Shown: one piece after another, positions 18,956-64,000 of the stretch | Position numbering within the stretch: the first letter of the stretch is position 1 | Layout of the letters: each line of letters begins with the position of its first letter | DNA from: Cellulophaga sp. HaHaR_3_176 | GTDB taxonomy: Bacteria; Bacteroidota; Bacteroidia; Flavobacteriales; Flavobacteriaceae | Direction of reading: 5' to 3' | Length of the DNA stretch: 64,000 bases | Assembly (NCBI RefSeq): GCF_019021925.1 | Contig: NZ_CP058990.1 | Span: forward strand, 1,418,001 to 1,482,000 | The notes under the pieces: model-generated | Databases searched by the model: none | What the model was told of the DNA's origin: nothing | The model's input: the letters and a program-made list of their open reading frames with translations, nothing else | Position numbers and translations under genes: made by a program

Positions 18956-19203
18956 TTTATAATTTATTTAGATTCTTTTTAAATAATCGTATAATATAAT
19001 CGTCAATATTTATTGAATTATATAAGGCTGCATTCAACATTATACTCAATGGGTTAGTATAAAAGCAGTAGTGGAATAAAAACAACTACTTTTCAACAAG
19101 TAATCTGCTTAATTATTTACAAAAGAGATTCAAGTTCTCACCTGAACAGTTTTTGTTTTAGATATTGTTACATGCCGTTTTTTGTTCTATAAAACTTCAA
19201 TAT
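18956..19203. other. Gap upstream of the EF-hand YHYH gene
   Basis: About 250 bp between the EF-hand YHYH start and the DUF1566 remnant. It must contain the YHYH promoter; no clear TAnnTTTG, operator or RNA element was recognised. Confidence 0.3.
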
Positions 19204-56253: not shown

Positions 56254-56368
56254 GTTTGCTTTTTATAGCAAAATTCCAAAAATTTTACAGCCTCATAAAT
56301 ATACATATATGACCTTGGTGTAAAACTCCAAACCTACATTAGTTTTAGTCATTGTTATAGTGTCGTTT

Positions 56369-56836
56369 TTATTTTACATCCCAATTTTTTATTTCAGTTT
56401 GATATTTTTCTCTATCGGTCGAGTGAATTCCAAAAATTGAAATTCCGCTGTCAAATATTTTAACTTCAAAGTCACGTTTTGTTGAATATCGGTCATCGAA
56501 GTCATTTGAAAAATAGATAAATACTGCAAATAAAACTGCATAACCAATCCAAAATATTTTCGAAATACGTTTCGGAATATTGATTTTCCAAAACCGGTTT
56601 AGAATTAATGTTATAATTAGCCAAAACGTAAAATAAGTCAACAAATTAACTATCATTTCAGTCAGAAAATATTGTGTAGATAAAGAAGTATGAAACCCGT
56701 CACATTTATAAATCAGAGGAAATCCATATAAAAACTCATCTGTTCCGTCAATTACAATTCCATACGACCATTTTGTTATAATTCCGAATGAAATTAAAGT
56801 TAAAGGTAAGGTCAATCTAAATATTATTTTTTTCAT
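56369..56836 (-). CDS. Three-helix hypothetical membrane protein
   Basis: 155 residues with hydrophobic segments at ~8-25, ~60-80 and ~95-112. An extracellular loop holds GTDEFLYGFPLIYKCDGFHTS. No family recognised. In leftward reading it begins 30 bp after the ~196-bp repeat at 56866-57061, as the next cassette of an array would. No such repeat follows its own stop. Confidence 0.6.
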   Translation of the reverse strand: MKKIIFRLTLPLTLISFGIITKWSYGIVIDGTDEFLYGFPLIYKCDGFHTSLSTQYFLTEMIVNLLTYFTFWLIITLILNRFWKINIPKRISKIFWIGYAVLFAVFIYFSNDFDDRYSTKRDFEVKIFDSGISIFGIHSTDREKYQTEIKNWDVK

Positions 56837-56865: not shown

Positions 56866-57061
56866 TGCAACACAACATTCGGCTATTTTTAGTTCGGGAC
56901 TTAAAAGTACTAAGCTTTCAATTAATTACTTAGCTAAAACTTTTTATTTTGTTTTATCTTTTCATTTTTAAACCAAATAAAAAGATTTGATGGACTTTGT
57001 TAAAAAGCACAGAACTTTCGGTTTAGCACAAATAACCTATTTTCTTATACCTTGTTAGCAA
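56866..57061 (-). repeat. ~196-bp structured repeat, copy A (cassette-like)
   Basis: Related to copies B and C by shared blocks: ACTTAGCTAAA in the left half, GGACTTTGT, GCACAGAACTTT and TTTAGCACAAA in the right half, and TATACCTTGTTAGC at the right end. Inner arms CTTTTTATTTTG and AAATAAAAAGAT can pair. The right end is 9 bp past the helicase stop. Its left end is the most degenerate of the three. Confidence 0.7.
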
Positions 57062-57070
57062 ATGTTTTTA

Positions 57071-60000
57071 TCAAATTGAAAACTTATCTTTTATTTTACT
57101 TATTTCGTTTTCAACCATGTCACCCTGAATAATTATTGAAGTTTCATTTCTATGGTATGGACTGCTCGAGTCTCTTGTGGCAGAGAGCCAATTAAATGAA
57201 CCTTCAATTAAAACTTTATTGTCAATACAAATAGTCTTGTTATGAATACCATTAACAATTACCAATTCAGCTTTAGTTTCAGAAATAGCTTCTCTACCTA
57301 GTTTACTATGTCTTTTTAATTGACCGTCTTTTTTATCAAGGTTGTTATCTGTTACAATTGTTATTTTTATGTTTTTAGTTGTACATTCTTTAATTAAAGA
57401 TATAATGTTGTCTTCTTTAATTGCGTTTATAGAAAGGAAAGGAGAAAAGATAATTAATTCCTTTTCTACGGAGTCAAAACACCTTTTTAATAGTTTCCGA
57501 TGCATATCTAAATCATCGATACGAGTAACTTTATTTTGAGGAGTATTCTGGTAGACCAGCTCTGATTTAAAAATAAAGCGTTCGTCTAGCGCATATGACT
57601 CGCTAGAAAGTAATTTTTCTGCTAGTCTTCCTGATGGTGTTTTATCTTTTGGGTTAAACACTCCCATATTACCTATAACGATAAAAGAGTGTTTTGCTCG
57701 AGTAAGAGCCACATTAAGCATGTTAAATTTACCCTCAAAATCAAAAAACAAAGAAGTATCTTCTATACCGTGTACACTAGAGAATAAGATAATAGCTCTC
57801 TCTGTTCCTTGAAGAGCGTGAACTGTTCCTACAATTATTTTTTCTGATATTTCTTCCCCTAGTTGATTTTTTAAAATCCCTTTAATAATTGTTTTTTGTG
57901 CCGAAAAAGGTGTTACAACAGCTAAGACTTCATCAATTGGCTTGCCGTATGCTGTTTCTATTTCCTCTCTTTTACTAATAATCCATTGAACAATGGCATT
58001 GGCCTCCTTTACATTCTTCTTACTACTACCGTTATGCTTTTCGGAGCTTCCATTTACATGTATATAACCCAGAGGAGGTATTTCGTACGTATCATTACTT
58101 TTACCTCCCATTAATTTTAATGAACCACTATAAATATTGTCTTTTGAATATTCTGCAATAGGGTCTAAGCATCTTCTGTGTTCTAATAAATAAGCTCCTT
58201 TTTCCAATTTATTATTTTGATGTTTATAGATGAATGGAGTTGCATTTCTAATTATCCTCATTAGGTTTCCATTCGATGCATTGAAGCCGAGAGATGCATT
58301 TCTTTCAAACTCATCTTCAGACTTGATCACATCATATTTCTTAGCATTAAAAAAGTCTATGTTTTCCGTGACATTCCATACCGGTTCTATCTGATGCACA
58401 TCACCAACAGCTAGTATCTTTTTTGTTAAGGATAATGACGGTATTGCCACTTCAGGAGATACTTGACCAGATTCGTCCACAATCATTAAATCAAATAATT
58501 CTTTGTAATATTTCTGTCCCTCTTTATGATTATAATACGTTAAAAATTTAGGTAAAGAATGAAAGGTAGCGATGTACAAAGGTGAGATTTTAGCAATTCG
58601 TCTAAGCTTTTTAGCATAACTTTTTTCTCCTAACTCCTTGTTTTCCTTTTTATACTTTTCTTCGTTTTCTTTTTTGTTTTCTAATTCTTCTATGTATTCC
58701 CATTCTCTATAGTGAGTAGAGAGCCAAAAAAGTTCATATCTATAAGAAATGTCTAGTTTTACAGCTGTATCTCTCAGTGTATCAAGGTTATTATACTCAT
58801 CATTGGTTTTCTTAATTAACTTAACCCATTTCTTTGAATACGTGTCACTCCATTTTGATTTGAAGTTTTCATAAAGACTGTTTCTTGTCTTTATTTCTTT
58901 AACTAAAAGGAGGAGTTCATCTAGATTATACTGTAAGTTTTCTTGTTGTTTAATGGTGTTCAGTAAAACCTCTTCTAACCGACTATAAACTTTAAGGTAA
59001 ATACTCCAGTCATTAAAATCTATGAACTCATTAATAAATGGGTGGGCAATTAACTTAAAAGAGTTGGTTTTTATTTCTTGAAATTTCCTCAAAGGCAAAA
59101 GCCTTATGAGCATAGGGAAATTAGCGTTTTTTTCTTCTAACTGATTTAATATACTTTTTAACTGTTCCTCTTTATTAGAATTTTTAATTAATTTATCCTT
59201 AAGTTGAGCTGTCTTTGAAATTAACTCTTCTGTACTTTTATAGTATTTGTCTATTAATAATTCAGGTATCTTATGCTTCTTGATCGCTATACTAATTGTC
59301 TCATGAATAGTAGTTTTAAGTGCTTTTATTCTTTTTAGTAAAAAAGCTTTAACATCAGTATCCTTATCTATGGTCTCCGTCCTGAACTGGGTTCTTAATT
59401 GTTTTAAAAAGAATTTTTTATATTCATCTATCTTTGAGTAATCTTCTAATTTCTCTAAAAAGAAATCATTTAAATACTTTGAGGTAGCAGATTGATATTT
59501 CCCTGTTTCAGCTTTGGCTTTTGAACAGAGGTAAAGGCCAAAAGAGTTTACATCTGGAATCCATCTACTATTTAAAGTATCCCCACCATCTAAGGTCATA
59601 CTGTCAAGAATGTTTGTAATTGCTTGGTTGTTTGTAGAACTACCCATTATAAGAGGAGCTTCTGCAGAGTTAAGTACAGATTTACTTACAATATTAGCTA
59701 TAAAACTTTGTAAGATAAATGTCTTACCTGTACCAGGAGGGCCATTAACAGCAAATGCTTTTTTATTGTATTTGGAGCTAAATTGAGCAAAAGCTACACG
59801 TTGTGATTCGGAGAGAGGATACTCACCACTCATTTGTCCACAATGATAAGGGTTAAGAAAGATTTCTTCTTCTGTTAATTCATGGTTCTTAACTTCTGGT
59901 TCTACTTCTAAAACATTATTTAATAGAGGGTATTCTGATTTGTTTTTTTTATCTGTTAAAGCATTATATAGTTGTAATATATTTTGTATTACAGAATCGT

Positions 60001-60553
60001 CGCTATTCTCAGCAATGGCAAATTGATAAATATCTTCTTCGTGATATTCTTTAAATTTTCTATTTGTCACTTTATAAAAAAATCTCTCACAGTCTTCCCA
60101 ATATTGCTCCCAGTTTTCAATACTTATTTCAGTTTTCGCTATTGAACGATCTAGCTTTTCTATACTGGTTATGGTAGGGTAGTTACCCGGATTAGGGCTT
60201 AAAAAAACTCTAAGGAATTCAGGTGGTTTCGATTCTTTTGGCGGACTCAGTATACCTTCTTTGTTCACTCGAGCTTTTATCCAAAAAGGAAAGTGTTTTT
60301 TTGAGTCTCTTTTATTAGACCCATGTTTAACTTCTGATGCAATATAAAAAGGTGCTATTTCTATATCATTAAATAACGTTTTTTCATCTTTCTTAAAATC
60401 TTTCCAAAAGCTTTTAATTTCTGCTTCATTAAAATTAGAAATCATACTTGTATTTCGCTCAATAAAATTACGCGTAAGGGGTTTTTTATCACCTCTATTA
60501 CCATCAATTAACGATGCTCTGTAATAGTTTAACCATTTACTTGTTTCCTTCAT
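57071..60553 (-). CDS. SF1 (UPF1-like) helicase with C-terminal PLD nuclease, Mokosh type II-like
   Basis: 1160 residues. The helicase core splits around a long helical insertion: Walker A GPPGTGKT (~270), then ~400 residues of coiled, Lys/Glu-rich sequence, then LMIVDESGQVSPEVAIPS (motif II, ~690), GDVHQIEPV (motif III), VGTVHALQGTER (motif V) and NVALTRAKHSFIVIG (motif VI). The C-terminal ~170 residues are a PLD-like domain, IIFSPFLSI then a single HKD, IHNKTICIDNKVLIEGS (~1103). A single protein with an SF1 helicase and PLD matches the published Mokosh type II (MkoC) anti-phage system. It occupies a cassette flanked by the ~198-bp repeats. The defence role is inferred. Confidence 0.82.
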   Translation of the reverse strand: MKETSKWLNYYRASLIDGNRGDKKPLTRNFIERNTSMISNFNEAEIKSFWKDFKKDEKTLFNDIEIAPFYIASEVKHGSNKRDSKKHFPFWIKARVNKEGILSPPKESKPPEFLRVFLSPNPGNYPTITSIEKLDRSIAKTEISIENWEQYWEDCERFFYKVTNRKFKEYHEEDIYQFAIAENSDDSVIQNILQLYNALTDKKNKSEYPLLNNVLEVEPEVKNHELTEEEIFLNPYHCGQMSGEYPLSESQRVAFAQFSSKYNKKAFAVNGPPGTGKTFILQSFIANIVSKSVLNSAEAPLIMGSSTNNQAITNILDSMTLDGGDTLNSRWIPDVNSFGLYLCSKAKAETGKYQSATSKYLNDFFLEKLEDYSKIDEYKKFFLKQLRTQFRTETIDKDTDVKAFLLKRIKALKTTIHETISIAIKKHKIPELLIDKYYKSTEELISKTAQLKDKLIKNSNKEEQLKSILNQLEEKNANFPMLIRLLPLRKFQEIKTNSFKLIAHPFINEFIDFNDWSIYLKVYSRLEEVLLNTIKQQENLQYNLDELLLLVKEIKTRNSLYENFKSKWSDTYSKKWVKLIKKTNDEYNNLDTLRDTAVKLDISYRYELFWLSTHYREWEYIEELENKKENEEKYKKENKELGEKSYAKKLRRIAKISPLYIATFHSLPKFLTYYNHKEGQKYYKELFDLMIVDESGQVSPEVAIPSLSLTKKILAVGDVHQIEPVWNVTENIDFFNAKKYDVIKSEDEFERNASLGFNASNGNLMRIIRNATPFIYKHQNNKLEKGAYLLEHRRCLDPIAEYSKDNIYSGSLKLMGGKSNDTYEIPPLGYIHVNGSSEKHNGSSKKNVKEANAIVQWIISKREEIETAYGKPIDEVLAVVTPFSAQKTIIKGILKNQLGEEISEKIIVGTVHALQGTERAIILFSSVHGIEDTSLFFDFEGKFNMLNVALTRAKHSFIVIGNMGVFNPKDKTPSGRLAEKLLSSESYALDERFIFKSELVYQNTPQNKVTRIDDLDMHRKLLKRCFDSVEKELIIFSPFLSINAIKEDNIISLIKECTTKNIKITIVTDNNLDKKDGQLKRHSKLGREAISETKAELVIVNGIHNKTICIDNKVLIEGSFNWLSATRDSSSPYHRNETSIIIQGDMVENEISKIKDKFSI

Positions 60554-60681
60554 TTATTAAGTTTTTAAGATGAAATTTCTTCTAAATCTATGGTTTTAAT
60601 TATAACTATAAATATTACATTTCAACTTAAAAACTAGTTAAGAAATCGTTTGGTTATATTTGTTAGTTTTTTCTTCCGCTT

Positions 60682-60880
60682 GCAGCTAACGTTTAGTATA
60701 AGAAACGTAGGGCAATAAATAAGCACTATCGTTTCAGTTTATTACTTAGCTAAATATAAAAATTTTGCTTTTATTTTTTTTCTATAAACGCCAAATTTTA
60801 TATTTAGCGGACTTTGTAAATATGCACAGAACTTTGAATTTAGCACAAACGCCCTATGTTTTTTATACCGTGTTAGCAGC
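60682..60880 (-). repeat. ~199-bp structured repeat, copy B (cassette-like)
   Basis: Outer arms are imperfect inverted repeats: left GCAGCTAACGTTTAGTATAA.., and right complement GCTGCTAACACGGTATAAAA... Inner arms GCTAAATATAAAAATTTTGC / GCCAAATTTTATATTTAGC pair closely, so the whole folds into a long two-stem cruciform. The right end lies 8 bp past the stop of the gene at 60889. Confidence 0.75.
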
Positions 60881-60888
60881 TTTTTTCT

Positions 60889-61077
60889 TTAATATTCCTT
60901 GCTCTTTATTTGAAATTTAAAGTTCACATCTTCCGCAGTAAGTTTTATTTCTTTGTCCTTCTTCTTCAGAATAAATTCTAATGTAGGCTCCCAACCACTT
61001 TCTTGATTAGTTTCTCCACCCAAAATCTCAACACTATAAAATCCGTTTTTCAAGATTAATTTTCGGGCGAATTCCAT
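60889..61077 (-). CDS. Small hypothetical protein, possibly the 3' part of a frameshifted gene
   Basis: 62 residues (start ATG 61077, reading MEFARKLILKNGFYSVEILG.. and ending FKFQIKSKEY). It overlaps the upstream gene by 44 bp in another frame. The upstream protein's tail is encoded by the same DNA in the other frame, so one shift would merge the two into a ~190-residue protein. No family recognised. Repeat B begins 8 bp after its stop. Confidence 0.5.
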   Translation of the reverse strand: MEFARKLILKNGFYSVEILGGETNQESGWEPTLEFILKKKDKEIKLTAEDVNFKFQIKSKEY

Positions 61078-61450
61078 TTGATTTTAAAGAGTTTATTCCG
61101 TTTTCTTCAGTCCAATTTTTAAGATAAGGAATAGTCATTAAATATATTTCTTGATTAACTATTTCGAGAAAATAACCAACTCTTTTGAATTGTAAATCAT
61201 TCTCATTGTTATCAAATATGGAATCCTCAGAATTAATTTGAAAAAAAATATGATATGGATAATTAGCAATTCCTGATAATGGAATTAAAGCGCCCTTTTC
61301 TACAACTAAATCTCCGCTATTATTTTCTGTAAATTCAGAAATTAGATTATTAGAAAGATTATTATCCGATTTGAATAATGAAAGTTTAGAAGGGTCTCCT
61401 AAAAAAAAGTAGTCCCAAGTGTCATTTAAACATTCGGTAAATTTTATCAT
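61034..61450 (-). CDS. Hypothetical protein of the cassette region
   Basis: 138 residues, no signal peptide: SDNNLSNNLISEFTENN, GALIPLSGIANYPYHIFFQ and GYFLEIVNQEIYLMTIPYL are the clearest strands. The composition (acidic, Asn-rich) resembles immunity-type proteins but I recognise no family. It starts 20 bp after repeat C in leftward reading and overlaps the next gene by 44 bp. Confidence 0.55.
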   Translation of the reverse strand: MIKFTECLNDTWDYFFLGDPSKLSLFKSDNNLSNNLISEFTENNSGDLVVEKGALIPLSGIANYPYHIFFQINSEDSIFDNNENDLQFKRVGYFLEIVNQEIYLMTIPYLKNWTEENGINSLKSNGIRPKINLEKRIL

Positions 61451-61470
61451 TAGTAATTCTGTTTTTAATT

Positions 61471-61669
61471 GCTGCTAACGGCTTGGTATAATAAAAGTAA
61501 GGAGTTTAAAAGCACTTACTTTCAGTTAGTCGTTTAGCCAAATTCACAAATTTTCGTTTTAATCTGTATTTAATAAAACGTCAAATTTTTAATTTGGCGG
61601 GTTTCATTGAGAAGTACACTTTTCAATTTATTTCAAATGTCCTTATTTTTTTTATACCTTGTTGCCTGC
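61471..61669 (-). repeat. ~199-bp structured repeat, copy C (cassette-like)
   Basis: Outer arms: left GCTGCTAACGGCTTGGTATAAT.. and right complement GCAGGCAACAAGGTATAAAA.. (imperfect). Inner arms GCCAAATTCACAAATTTTCG and the complement of CGTCAAATTTTTAATTTGGC pair well. Spacing of the blocks and total length match copy B. Confidence 0.75.
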
Positions 61670-61809: not shown

Positions 61810-62994
61810 TTAAGGTGTTGATATATGCGTTTTTAAGTTTTTATTATATTCAAGTATTGGATTAATGTTAAATACTTTAAATAATTCTTCTCTTGTTTTT
61901 TTATTTTTCGGATTTCTAAGATCCCAACGAGTCATAAAAAAACATGTACTTTCCCAAAATGGTTTATTGCTATTATCTTGAATTGAATCCTCTATGATTG
62001 ACTTTAATATTTTTAGACTCCAACCAATGCCTTCATTTCTAAATGGTGTTTCAATTGTTTTTCTAGGGTCTGAATCTTTTATTAATAAATTGTCATCATA
62101 TTCTAAAATATTTTTTTCTTTATAAATCAAGCCCCATTGAATATAAACAATGTTTTTAGAATTATAATCTATTCCCTTAGAATACGAAATAGGATAATCG
62201 ATATCTTCATTTTCGATAGGTAAATTTCCCACGATTTCATATTCTCCATTTCGAAAATTGGTGTCGAAGATATATTGAGAAGGAAAACTTTTGTTGCTTT
62301 TTATATCAGTTATATTTAACTCTTTTAATTTACTTATTTTATGATAAACTTTAACAATTAATGCTTTTCCAAACAAATTTTTTAAACCATAATTGTTATC
62401 ATTATCAAGCGCTCCATCTTTACTTAATTTTGATATATCAGCTATAATTCTACCAAAACCATAATTTCTTCTATCAACTTTGAAGCAAAAAAAATCTCCT
62501 ACTTTTATTTTTTTTTTTGTGTTTGTTTCTTTACTAAAGTCTTTGAGAGCAAGTAGGTCTTTATCATTGCTATCATTTATGTATTGCTTTATCCATTTCC
62601 TTAAACTAATATAATCTGGTATTTTAAGGTTTTCAAAAGTAGATGAATAAAAATCTCTATTAGAAATGTTATTGGTAATTGAAACTGATGAATAATTTGA
62701 AGAATAATAAAAACACATAGTTCCTTCTTTAGAGATCATAGAAGAAAAATTTATTTTTTTAGGTTTTCCTTTCTTTGTCTTTGGAATTAAAAATTTTCTA
62801 TCCTCTGTTTTTTCATCTAAATCATTTTCCTGATATGTATTATGCTCATTTTGCATAAACCTTATTCGCTTTTTGATTATATTTCCATCAAAATAAAGAT
62901 ACATTAGATCCGATATTTTAATCTTATCCCAATTATCTTCTACTTGTCTTAAACCTAAATATTTCCTTTCTTCGTTTTGTAATTCAAAAATCAT
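61810..62994 (-). CDS. Imm26-like domain protein
   Basis: 394 residues, cytosolic. The segment KVGDFFCFKVDRRNYGFGRIIA (~165-187) is the entry to an Imm26 domain, known as an immunity protein of polymorphic toxins. The rest is acidic with many Asn, Ser and Ile: NSKNIVYIQWGLIYKEKNIL and WESTCFFMTRWDLRNPKNK. No toxin gene is seen nearby, so it is an orphan immunity candidate or uses the fold for another purpose. It sits between the cassette-like repeats and the IS3 element in a region of accessory genes. Confidence 0.6.
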   Translation of the reverse strand: MIFELQNEERKYLGLRQVEDNWDKIKISDLMYLYFDGNIIKKRIRFMQNEHNTYQENDLDEKTEDRKFLIPKTKKGKPKKINFSSMISKEGTMCFYYSSNYSSVSITNNISNRDFYSSTFENLKIPDYISLRKWIKQYINDSNDKDLLALKDFSKETNTKKKIKVGDFFCFKVDRRNYGFGRIIADISKLSKDGALDNDNNYGLKNLFGKALIVKVYHKISKLKELNITDIKSNKSFPSQYIFDTNFRNGEYEIVGNLPIENEDIDYPISYSKGIDYNSKNIVYIQWGLIYKEKNILEYDDNLLIKDSDPRKTIETPFRNEGIGWSLKILKSIIEDSIQDNSNKPFWESTCFFMTRWDLRNPKNKKTREELFKVFNINPILEYNKNLKTHISTP

Positions 62995-63043: not shown

Positions 63044-64000
63044 TGTCACGTCCTAAAATACGGCTACAGATTAATATTAGTTTTAAGCGGCATATTGATG
63101 CACGTAATTAGGTGTTTTATAATCTAAAGATAAATGCAATCTTTTAGAGTTGTATAATTTGATTGCATTTTTGGCTGCTTTTTTCGCATGTATCACGCTG
63201 GTAAAGGTTTGGTCAAGATAGAATTCATCTTTTAGAATACCGTTTACCCTTTCTGCTAGGGCATTTTCATAGCAATGGTTTTCTTCAGTCATACTGATTT
63301 TAATTTTCTTTCTTTTCAATATTTGAGTATAGACATTACTGCAATATTGAATACCTCTGTCCGAGTGATGAATAAGTTGGTCAATATTCTTGGCATTGTA
63401 AATAGCCTTATTTAAAGCTCTGACACACCCTTTTAGTTCTAGGCTATCACTTAGGTCATATCCAACGATTTTACGTGAGTACATATCTGTAATCAATGCT
63501 AGGTAACAGAATCCTTTAATGGTTCTGATGTAGGTTATATCGGAAGCCCAGACTTGATTAGGTCTATTGATTTTCAAGTCTTTTATAATATTACCATACT
63601 TATAAAACCTATGATATGAATTTGTGGTTCTAGAAGAATATTTTTTTCTTCTAACGAGTAATCGATTTTCTCTTAGGATACGGAACAGCTGGTCTCTACC
63701 GACTTTAAGGTCGTACTTTTGAAACTCATTTTTTAATGATCTCATGAGTTTTCTGGTACCTTCTCGAGGTAGTGTTCTTCTACTTTCCCGAACAAGTTGG
63801 ATTACATCTTGTTCTATCTGTTTTTTGATAACAAAACGTTTTTGGAATTTGTAATAGGCATCTCTTTTCAGATCAAAGGCATTACAGATAGTACAAATTG
63901 AATAGAGCCTTTCATTACGGTTTATCGGTGCTACTTTCATTAGGGCTTTATGTTTAAGTTTTTTTTTAATTCTTCAACATCTCTATAGCCTAGGTTCTCG
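63044..64000 (-). mobile_element. IS3-family insertion sequence, incomplete at the window edge
   Basis: Its left end is TGTCACGTCCTAAAATACGG at 63044, the likely terminal inverted repeat of the 3' side (TG end). The transposase reading frame lies inside. The 5' side, including most of orfA, is beyond the window. Upstream of orfB the frame stays open to the edge and contains a run of nine A residues on the coding strand (63959-63967), a possible slippage site for the OrfA-OrfB fusion. Confidence 0.85.
63083..63940 (-). CDS. IS3-family transposase OrfB
   Basis: 285 residues from ATG 63940, with the integrase core of retroviral type. The catalytic triad is Asp in WASDITYIRTI (~130), Asp in LIHHSDRGIQYCS (~190) and Glu in CYENALAERVNGILKDE (~225). 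The N-terminal half has the helix of IS150-group proteins (REGTRKLMRSLKNEF). The frame continues upstream to the window edge (..ENLGYRDVEELKKKLKHK..), so the true product is probably an OrfAB fusion made by frameshifting near the A run. It inserts copies of the element. No sign of decay in this ORF. Confidence 0.93.
   Translation of the reverse strand: MKVAPINRNERLYSICTICNAFDLKRDAYYKFQKRFVIKKQIEQDVIQLVRESRRTLPREGTRKLMRSLKNEFQKYDLKVGRDQLFRILRENRLLVRRKKYSSRTTNSYHRFYKYGNIIKDLKINRPNQVWASDITYIRTIKGFCYLALITDMYSRKIVGYDLSDSLELKGCVRALNKAIYNAKNIDQLIHHSDRGIQYCSNVYTQILKRKKIKISMTEENHCYENALAERVNGILKDEFYLDQTFTSVIHAKKAAKNAIKLYNSKRLHLSLDYKTPNYVHQYAA

Follow-up and report, generated by a model that had tools for sequence, protein, structure and literature searches.

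Complete integrons are reported to be scarce in Bacteroidetes: IntegronFinder 2 places one in Salinibacter ruber, only In0 elements having been found previously (PMC9024848), and two further papers record intI genes in the wider Bacteroidetes group (PMC2426708, PMC9668308). A literature search over titles and the openings of abstracts, together with parts of papers, returned no description of the cassette system considered here, most subscription papers and all bioRxiv preprints lying outside its coverage. This system came into view in a window of 64,000 nucleotides from Cellulophaga sp. HaHaR_3_176 (positions 1,418,001–1,482,000 of the single 3.80-Mb contig that forms its genome, G000), where three structured repeats, termed A, B and C, accompany leftward genes. 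A sequence-only reading had likened them to an integron array, read leftward, made up of gene-attC units, and this view has been strengthened by further sites, a recombinase, an attI-like site and paired unit ends. The repeats are very probably attC-like sites belonging to a system of gene cassettes in Bacteroidota that would work like an integron, a term whose use is supported for the architecture and not for strict family membership, since the recombinase is not of the IntI type.

All three repeats are recovered on the minus strand by a covariance model, R1, and are real: site A at 56873–57059 (114 bits), site B at 60687–60877 (175 bits) and site C at 61476–61666 (112 bits). An iterated nhmmer search seeded with the three copies, over 11 stretches around other BLAST matches, gave 43 near-full copies that were aligned, and R1 comprises 56 sites, including those of the window and sites of other species. 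The length of ~198 bp first given for the repeats takes in unit-specific arms, the conserved body being shorter, ~187–193 nt. Further copies, which the sequence-only reading had proposed to look for, are plentiful: a BLAST search with copy A reached 20 places in its own genome, and R1 finds at least 61 sites there in oriented gene-plus-site arrays, a lower bound with 150 of 5912 candidates scored. Beside the ~190-nt class, to which C belongs, there exists a second class of ~125–135 nt, described by a second covariance model, R2 (35 bits for C); among 199 fetched sites, of which at least one is counted twice as loci L099 and L014 overlap, 58 measure 120–145 nt and 141 measure 175–210 nt. Twenty 20-kb stretches elsewhere in the genome contained no R1 match at E ≤ 0.1 and no R2 match at E ≤ 0.001. 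Chance is excluded by this genome-wide recurrence together with the covariation and the matching of unit ends.

Read in the direction of its gene, a unit opens with GTT, behind which come seven variable nucleotides (N7), an A (96 of 97 units with matching ends) and mostly T, and its 3′ end carries an N7-AAC arm at which the site begins, the site itself terminating in CG/TT. Start arm and 3′ arm of the same unit are reverse complements at six or more of seven positions in 97 of 136 units, 67 of them perfectly, as against a mean of 4.0 and a maximum of 11 in 2000 trials with shuffled pairings, and among units shorter than 2 kb the ends match to this degree in 91 of 112. Just past N7 the A of the start stands opposite a C in 90 of the 97, a conserved mismatch. 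This pairing is expected if the unit is excised as a circle whose attC-like site is folded, and each cassette thereby has the complementary R″/R′ ends of an integron cassette, alongside palindromic L arms and a conserved fold. Located by a pattern favouring GTT, the core shows G, T and T in 95, 96 and 97 of the matching units, with R at the following position in 96, B and V after it and freer positions beyond, and is not the RYYYAAC/GTTRRRY of attC; at ~130 or ~190 nt the sites are also long, so that both peculiarities remarked on at the outset persist. Cassettes stand in tandem and in a common orientation, each ending in a site: none of 55 loci (single-site loci counted) has sites on both strands, 89 of the 97 matching units hold an open reading frame (ORF) of at least 50 aa, and in 85 of these 89 the longest ORF points to its own site. 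From GTT to the start codon the median distance is 25 nt, and from the ORF end to the end of AAC it is 14 nt. At two places, L012:14073 and L016:6826–7011, an identical unusual left flank, taatttaatgaattacaaacttaaga, replaces the usual arm.

RNAalifold and a pair count over the 56 sites give a fold of three elements, namely a 12-pair stem formed by the two ends, a short helix and a hairpin further inside. Paired cells amount to 92.8% (73.2% shuffled), the covariation score to 0.507 (0.165 shuffled, 0.03–0.08 in slid controls), and the double-changed cells in the stem to 216 (80 shuffled, 13–38 in slid controls). With 180 cells changed on both sides and 6 G-T type pairs, the long stem suits pairing of DNA, an argument drawn from this stem only, the two inner helices holding many G-T type cells. 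As single-stranded DNA, site B folds better than its shuffles on both strands (z −2.55 and −3.24), and in 145 of the 199 fetched sites the bottom strand is more stable, by ~1.3 kcal/mol on average, a difference of energies only that would be weak evidence for the strand used.

The absence of an integrase from the window, remarked on earlier, reflects a distance of ~0.38 Mb on the same contig. Among the four tyrosine recombinases that a search of the genome found, two are Xer-like (~297 aa), a third lies in a frame of 414 aa at another place, and the fourth, 375 aa long, is encoded at 1,863,972–1,865,096 directly upstream of an array, which places a tyrosine recombinase next to such sites, as the sequence-only reading had suggested checking. 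Here the integrase gene is followed by a short palindrome, GTT and the first cassette, an attI-like arrangement in which that cassette has a start arm (GTTGTAGCC) matching its own 3′ arm (GGCTACAAC). In Maribacter, Aquimarina and Dokdonia the integrase gene is likewise followed by palindrome and GTT and then by differing sequences, and in Arenibacter by a stretch and GTT without a clear palindrome. Of 41 integrase loci, 32 have such an attI-like site beside the gene by a strict test (arms of the palindrome scoring at least 8, GTT no more than 12 nt away) and 36 by a relaxed one (a few doubtful), whereas none of 123 control windows placed within integrase genes passes the strict test; among the nine strict failures (L024, L028, L034, L037, L039, L051, L053, L054 and L056), several have a less pronounced palindrome or a GTT that is spaced differently. 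Close relatives also differ in the cassette held at attI, which speaks to the gain or loss of units that a comparison of strains was expected to reveal: in two Maribacter loci, L025 and L026, the integrase genes are 97.4% identical, the upstream flanks 96.7% identical and attI identical up to GTT, and different first cassettes follow. Over the stretch compared behind the gene, the likeness of the two amounts to 0.70, within the range of eight more distant pairs (0.63–0.72, without a shuffled baseline), L025 offering only ~280 nt behind its integrase gene for comparison. Different cassettes at attI are found in eight further pairs at 79–89% integrase identity, and in the pairs L028/L032 and L030/L033 the likeness breaks directly after GTT.

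The type of the recombinase bears on the rival reading that the system is a canonical integron, whose ordinary IntI and attC have merely diverged. The architecture is indeed identical, and the NCBIfam integron integrase model TIGR02249 matches the protein at E 1.2e-59, but with 202 bits the match falls short of the cut-off of 265 and is split in two pieces; NF040815 matches with 227 bits at a cut-off of 220. When six of these integrases were aligned with one IntI1, the insertion preceding its HxxR motif was absent from all six, and five of them have an N-terminal extension of ~105 aa, the Chryseobacterium integrase being shorter. Identity to IntI1 is 31% over residues 119–375, and in a PDB alignment IntI4 (2a3v) jumps from residue 173 to 242 opposite residues 273 to 300 of the query, so the locus does not have an IntI-type integrase with the additional domain near patch III. 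In a tree the two kinds of integrase form separate groups, although long branches meet there, no root is given and no claim of ancestry is made. Considering also that the core is GTT-R-B-V… and not GTTRRRY, mere divergence of a canonical integron is improbable.

Slightly less probable again is the proposal that housekeeping XerC/XerD moves the cassettes and the adjacent recombinase is a bystander, a route for which pdif modules, whose movement by XerC/XerD has been proposed, offer a precedent. The similarity of the recombinase to Xer enzymes would accommodate it, as would a genome, G014, that has sites and no integrase at E ≤ 1e-80; however, integrase and attI palindrome stay together where the integrases are 54–74% identical to that of the Cellulophaga genome, and no dif site is evident in the site alignments, dif sites not having been searched for as such. 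That the repeats are miniature inverted-repeat transposable elements (MITEs), or other transposable repeats inserting behind genes, is scarcely credible: high copy number, inverted ends, neighbouring insertion sequences at some copies and the occurrence of solitary copies (e.g., G000:757141) fit this picture, but the variable arms pair across the gene unit, loci of mixed strand are absent and ORFs point to their own sites. Within a single copy the arms match at chance level (mean 2.21 of 6 vs 2.18 shuffled, with a run of five or more in 1 of 52), so that the terminal inverted repeats of a MITE are lacking, and a MITE does not predict the pairing of unit ends. Because they pair across the unit and not within one copy, the arms belong to the gene unit and would be joined only upon its closing into a circle. 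A spread of copies through gene-less contexts, named earlier as a sign of a MITE, did not show itself, 89 of the 97 matching units holding an ORF; target duplications, the other such sign, were not searched for. Transcription terminators or RNA elements common to foreign genes, just as hard to credit, would account for stable stems shortly past stop codons but do not predict the complementarity between start and end of a unit, and Rfam, at its gathering thresholds, gives nothing in the window.

In the integron-like system favoured here, a cassette would extend from GTT-N7 through, usually, one gene and N7-AAC to the CG/TT at which its palindromic site of ~130 or ~190 nt ends. The recombinase would excise it as a circle by strand exchange at GTT, with a folded DNA strand of the site as substrate, and the circle would insert at attI or at another site, in which way distant arrays like that of the window could be seeded. 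Given that N7 differs greatly in its letters from unit to unit and yet preserves its pairing, the enzyme may read N7 by its shape and not by its sequence.

Several observations weigh against this account. The system is known from sequence alone, with excision, circle and strand exchange deduced and not observed, and the domain reported as necessary for the activity of IntI is absent from the integrase. The fold used to score covariation was derived from the same alignment, and pairs with change on both sides number 13 against 11.6 when shuffled, a value of 13 being reached by 70 of 500 shuffles. Of the 136 units, 39 fall short of six matching positions in seven; insertion sequences, chimeric units and missed sites would explain some of them, in an uncounted share. 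The likeness of L025 and L026 does not end at GTT and continues for ~12 nt through the start arm (GTTAGCTG-C/T-AATTAC). Finally, G014 has 59 sites, most of them in two clusters, and may have lost its integrase or possess a more distant one; 11 genomes are too few to test whether sites and integrase go together.

Within the window, whose array features all lie on the minus strand, the C-to-B unit reads as a textbook cassette. Its start core at the left end of C (GCTGCTAAC, GTT plus variable arm, 61471–61479) is the reverse complement of its 3′ arm at the right end of B (GTTAGCAGC, variable nucleotides plus AAC, 60872–60880) at 9 of 9 nt including GTT, which corresponds to six of the seven variable positions. 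These two sequences had been taken for outer inverted arms possessed by B and C each; they exist, but sit on two different repeats, as the ends of one cassette. The unit contains a 138-aa ORF without a Pfam family (61034–61450), overlapped in a different frame by another at 60889–61077, and the two look like one frameshifted cassette gene occupying 60889–61450. In the B-to-A cassette the start core (60682–60690) pairs with its own 3′ arm at just 3 of 7 positions. Its gene (57071–60553) encodes a 1160-aa helicase/PLD protein that matches MkoC of the Mokosh anti-phage defence (PADLOC, E 1.2e-295; Pfam AAA_12, AAA_11 and PLDc_2). Since a homologue in G210 (protein 86% identical) has a site on both sides and a 3′ arm similar by eye to that at site A, the 5′ end of the unit in the window has probably been replaced.

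Left of A, the last gene of the array, a 155-aa ORF without a Pfam family (56369–56836), belongs to a unit that terminates in the remnant of a fourth site (56255–56305; R1 26.4 bits, E 0.0086). Right of C lies a gene with the Imm26 immunity protein domain (61810–62994; PF15428, E 6.8e-19), in a unit that begins at a site just past the window (G000:1482362) and has an insertion sequence inside; the rve transposase of this element is at 63083–63940, and its far end (G000:1482253–1482352) abuts that next upstream site just beyond the window edge. The statement that a repeat follows each stop codon closely holds for A and B, whose ends are 7–8 bp from the stop of the gene on the right, and fails for C, where the distance is ~140 bp (gene end at 61810). 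A lone short-class match at 19047–19172 (minus strand; R2 40.8 bits, E 2.5e-5), distant from the array, could represent an isolated site or one in decay. At 1.475–1.482 Mb the array lies away from the integrase at 1.864 Mb, in the manner of clusters of attC sites lacking integron-integrases (CALIN).

From the cassettes of this genome 31 ORFs were compared with Pfam, and 16 of them had no family at the limits used. Among the others are MkoC (a name given by PADLOC), a type IV restriction enzyme (GmrSD), the immunity domains Imm26 and Imm70, a thioredoxin, an epimerase, a formyltransferase, two aspartyl proteases and a protein with ankyrin repeats; PADLOC, applied to 17 of the 31, gave two matches. 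A GmrSD type IV restriction enzyme is found as a cassette gene at L014:10485–12386. The rve-type (IS3-like) insertion sequence was found by its left end in eight copies (G000 315110, 646234, 1482253, 1654649, 1835622, 1867345, 2487468 and 3240726), and it seems to target these recombination sites, since every copy has the same orientation and begins 13 nt beyond the first base of a cassette core, which reads GTT except for one ATT.

Homologs of the integrase at E ≤ 1e-80 occur in 36 of 199 genera of the Flavobacteriaceae (one genome per genus) and in 9 of 18 genomes of the genus, the present genome being included in both counts, and sites occur in 10 of 11 complete genomes searched. Few cassettes are shared within and between the fetched arrays, most BLASTN pairs being insertion-sequence copies or long units, and one whole-cassette pair, between G000 and G210, is 81% identical over 533 bp. 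A Persicobacter plasmid encodes an integrase 43% identical to that of the Cellulophaga genome, with GTT behind TATACAATT and one site further on; the ends of its first unit agree by eye in GGCGGTA, and a palindrome is present only ~50 nt further up. On a Chryseobacterium plasmid a 40% identical integrase is accompanied by four weak to moderate site matches and by one unit whose ends agree by eye at six of seven positions.

Across all 61 sites of the genome the genes lie on the minus strand at 0.31–1.66 Mb and on the plus strand at 1.84–3.24 Mb. The strand switch between 1.66 and 1.84 Mb was considered as the terminus and rejected, since GC skew at third codon positions (GC3 skew), taken by gene strand, locates the two replichore switches at about 3.3 and 1.4 Mb; plain GC skew along stretches of the genome proved too noisy. 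16S rRNA matches (plus strand at 0.54 Mb, minus strand at 2.01 and 2.58 Mb) fit an origin near 3.3 Mb, and dnaA, at 1.99 Mb, is near neither switch. By these GC3 switches 51 of the 61 sites are head-on to the fork and 10, those of the window among them, are co-directional, on account of which a rule of invariable head-on orientation was dropped. In nine other complete genomes, with rRNA matches in eight, the sites among the matches listed are mostly opposed to the rRNA strands (judged by eye and uncounted), with exceptions such as G100. For Vibrio integron arrays the opposite preference is reported (PMC11023631). Should the bottom strand be active, the majority of arrays here would stand in the orientation that is unstable in Vibrio, and should it be the top strand the same logic would apply, which makes a prediction.

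A further relative of the integrase occurs in Acinetobacter plasmids carrying tet(X3). In pHH1107 (L143:4043–6061) a 666-nt truncated relative of the integrase gene, 58% identical over residues 146–375, is followed by a palindrome with GTT and then by tet(X3), 3′ of which stands AAAAC-N7-AACA; pJAT2044 (L142:2967–4988) has the same gene order. The ends of the tet(X3) unit match at 4 of 7 positions (shuffled mean 2.6), and no site is found behind the gene by R1 or R2. An attI-like site before tet(X3) is well supported, and tet(X3) is likely to be a cassette. The xerD neighbour of tet(X) has been noted, in the parts of three papers available, without explanation by a cassette system (PMC7473080, PMC7494873, PMC11194056), the first of which raises the question whether XerD mobilises tet(X) genes. 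The cassette system supplies a concrete hypothesis for xerD beside these genes.

A bolder proposal, made tentatively and with slightly more doubt than belief, is that the Bacteroidota possess an integron lineage of their own, in which the recombination of folded cassette sites would have arisen, or would persist, in an Xer-type recombinase without the IntI domain, with a shape-read N7 and a palindromic attI, in arrays mostly head-on to replication, and which would first have turned Flavobacteriia genes such as tet(X) into movable cassettes. If so, the integron would either have been invented independently here or survive in a form near the ancestor of IntI. A parallel system with its integrase in those 36 genera, and with relatives on the Chryseobacterium and Persicobacter plasmids, would in any case amount to an extensive path of gene exchange that has gone unrecorded. 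IntI-based tools may miss such cassettes, and the absence of the IntI domain raises the testable question of what enables an Xer recombinase to recombine sites that are folded and single-stranded.

Among known systems, the insertion sequences of the IS1111-attC group are specific for attC, and the copies described here resemble them in lying at a fixed place in cassette sites, although the present element is of the rve type (IS3-like). The xerD-tet(X3) region of Acinetobacter plasmids shares a related recombinase gene and, in pHH1107, the palindrome and GTT before tet(X3), but its integrase is truncated, its unit ends agree less well and its gene lacks a model-detected site behind it. XerA, XerC and XerD, with NF040815 (recomb_XerA_Arch, 'site-specific tyrosine recombinase/integron integrase'), represent the sequence family of the recombinase, from which the present enzyme is set apart by its N-terminal extension and by the attI-like site and cassette arrays beside its gene. 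In architecture the likeness is to the sedentary chromosomal integron (SCI) or superintegron of the Vibrio type, with integrase, attI and oriented arrays of mostly single-gene cassettes, each with complementary ends and closed by a palindromic site, with unknown, immunity and defence genes as cargo, and with integrase-less arrays resembling CALIN. Unlike that type, the system here has a recombinase without the IntI insertion and, in five of six cases, with the N-terminal extension; a core of GTT and variable N7; sites of ~130 and ~190 nt; a palindromic attI-like site; an integrase gene pointing the same way as its cassettes; and many scattered arrays, whose sites in 51 of 61 cases run against the replication fork, an orientation opposite to that reported for SCIs (PMC11023631).

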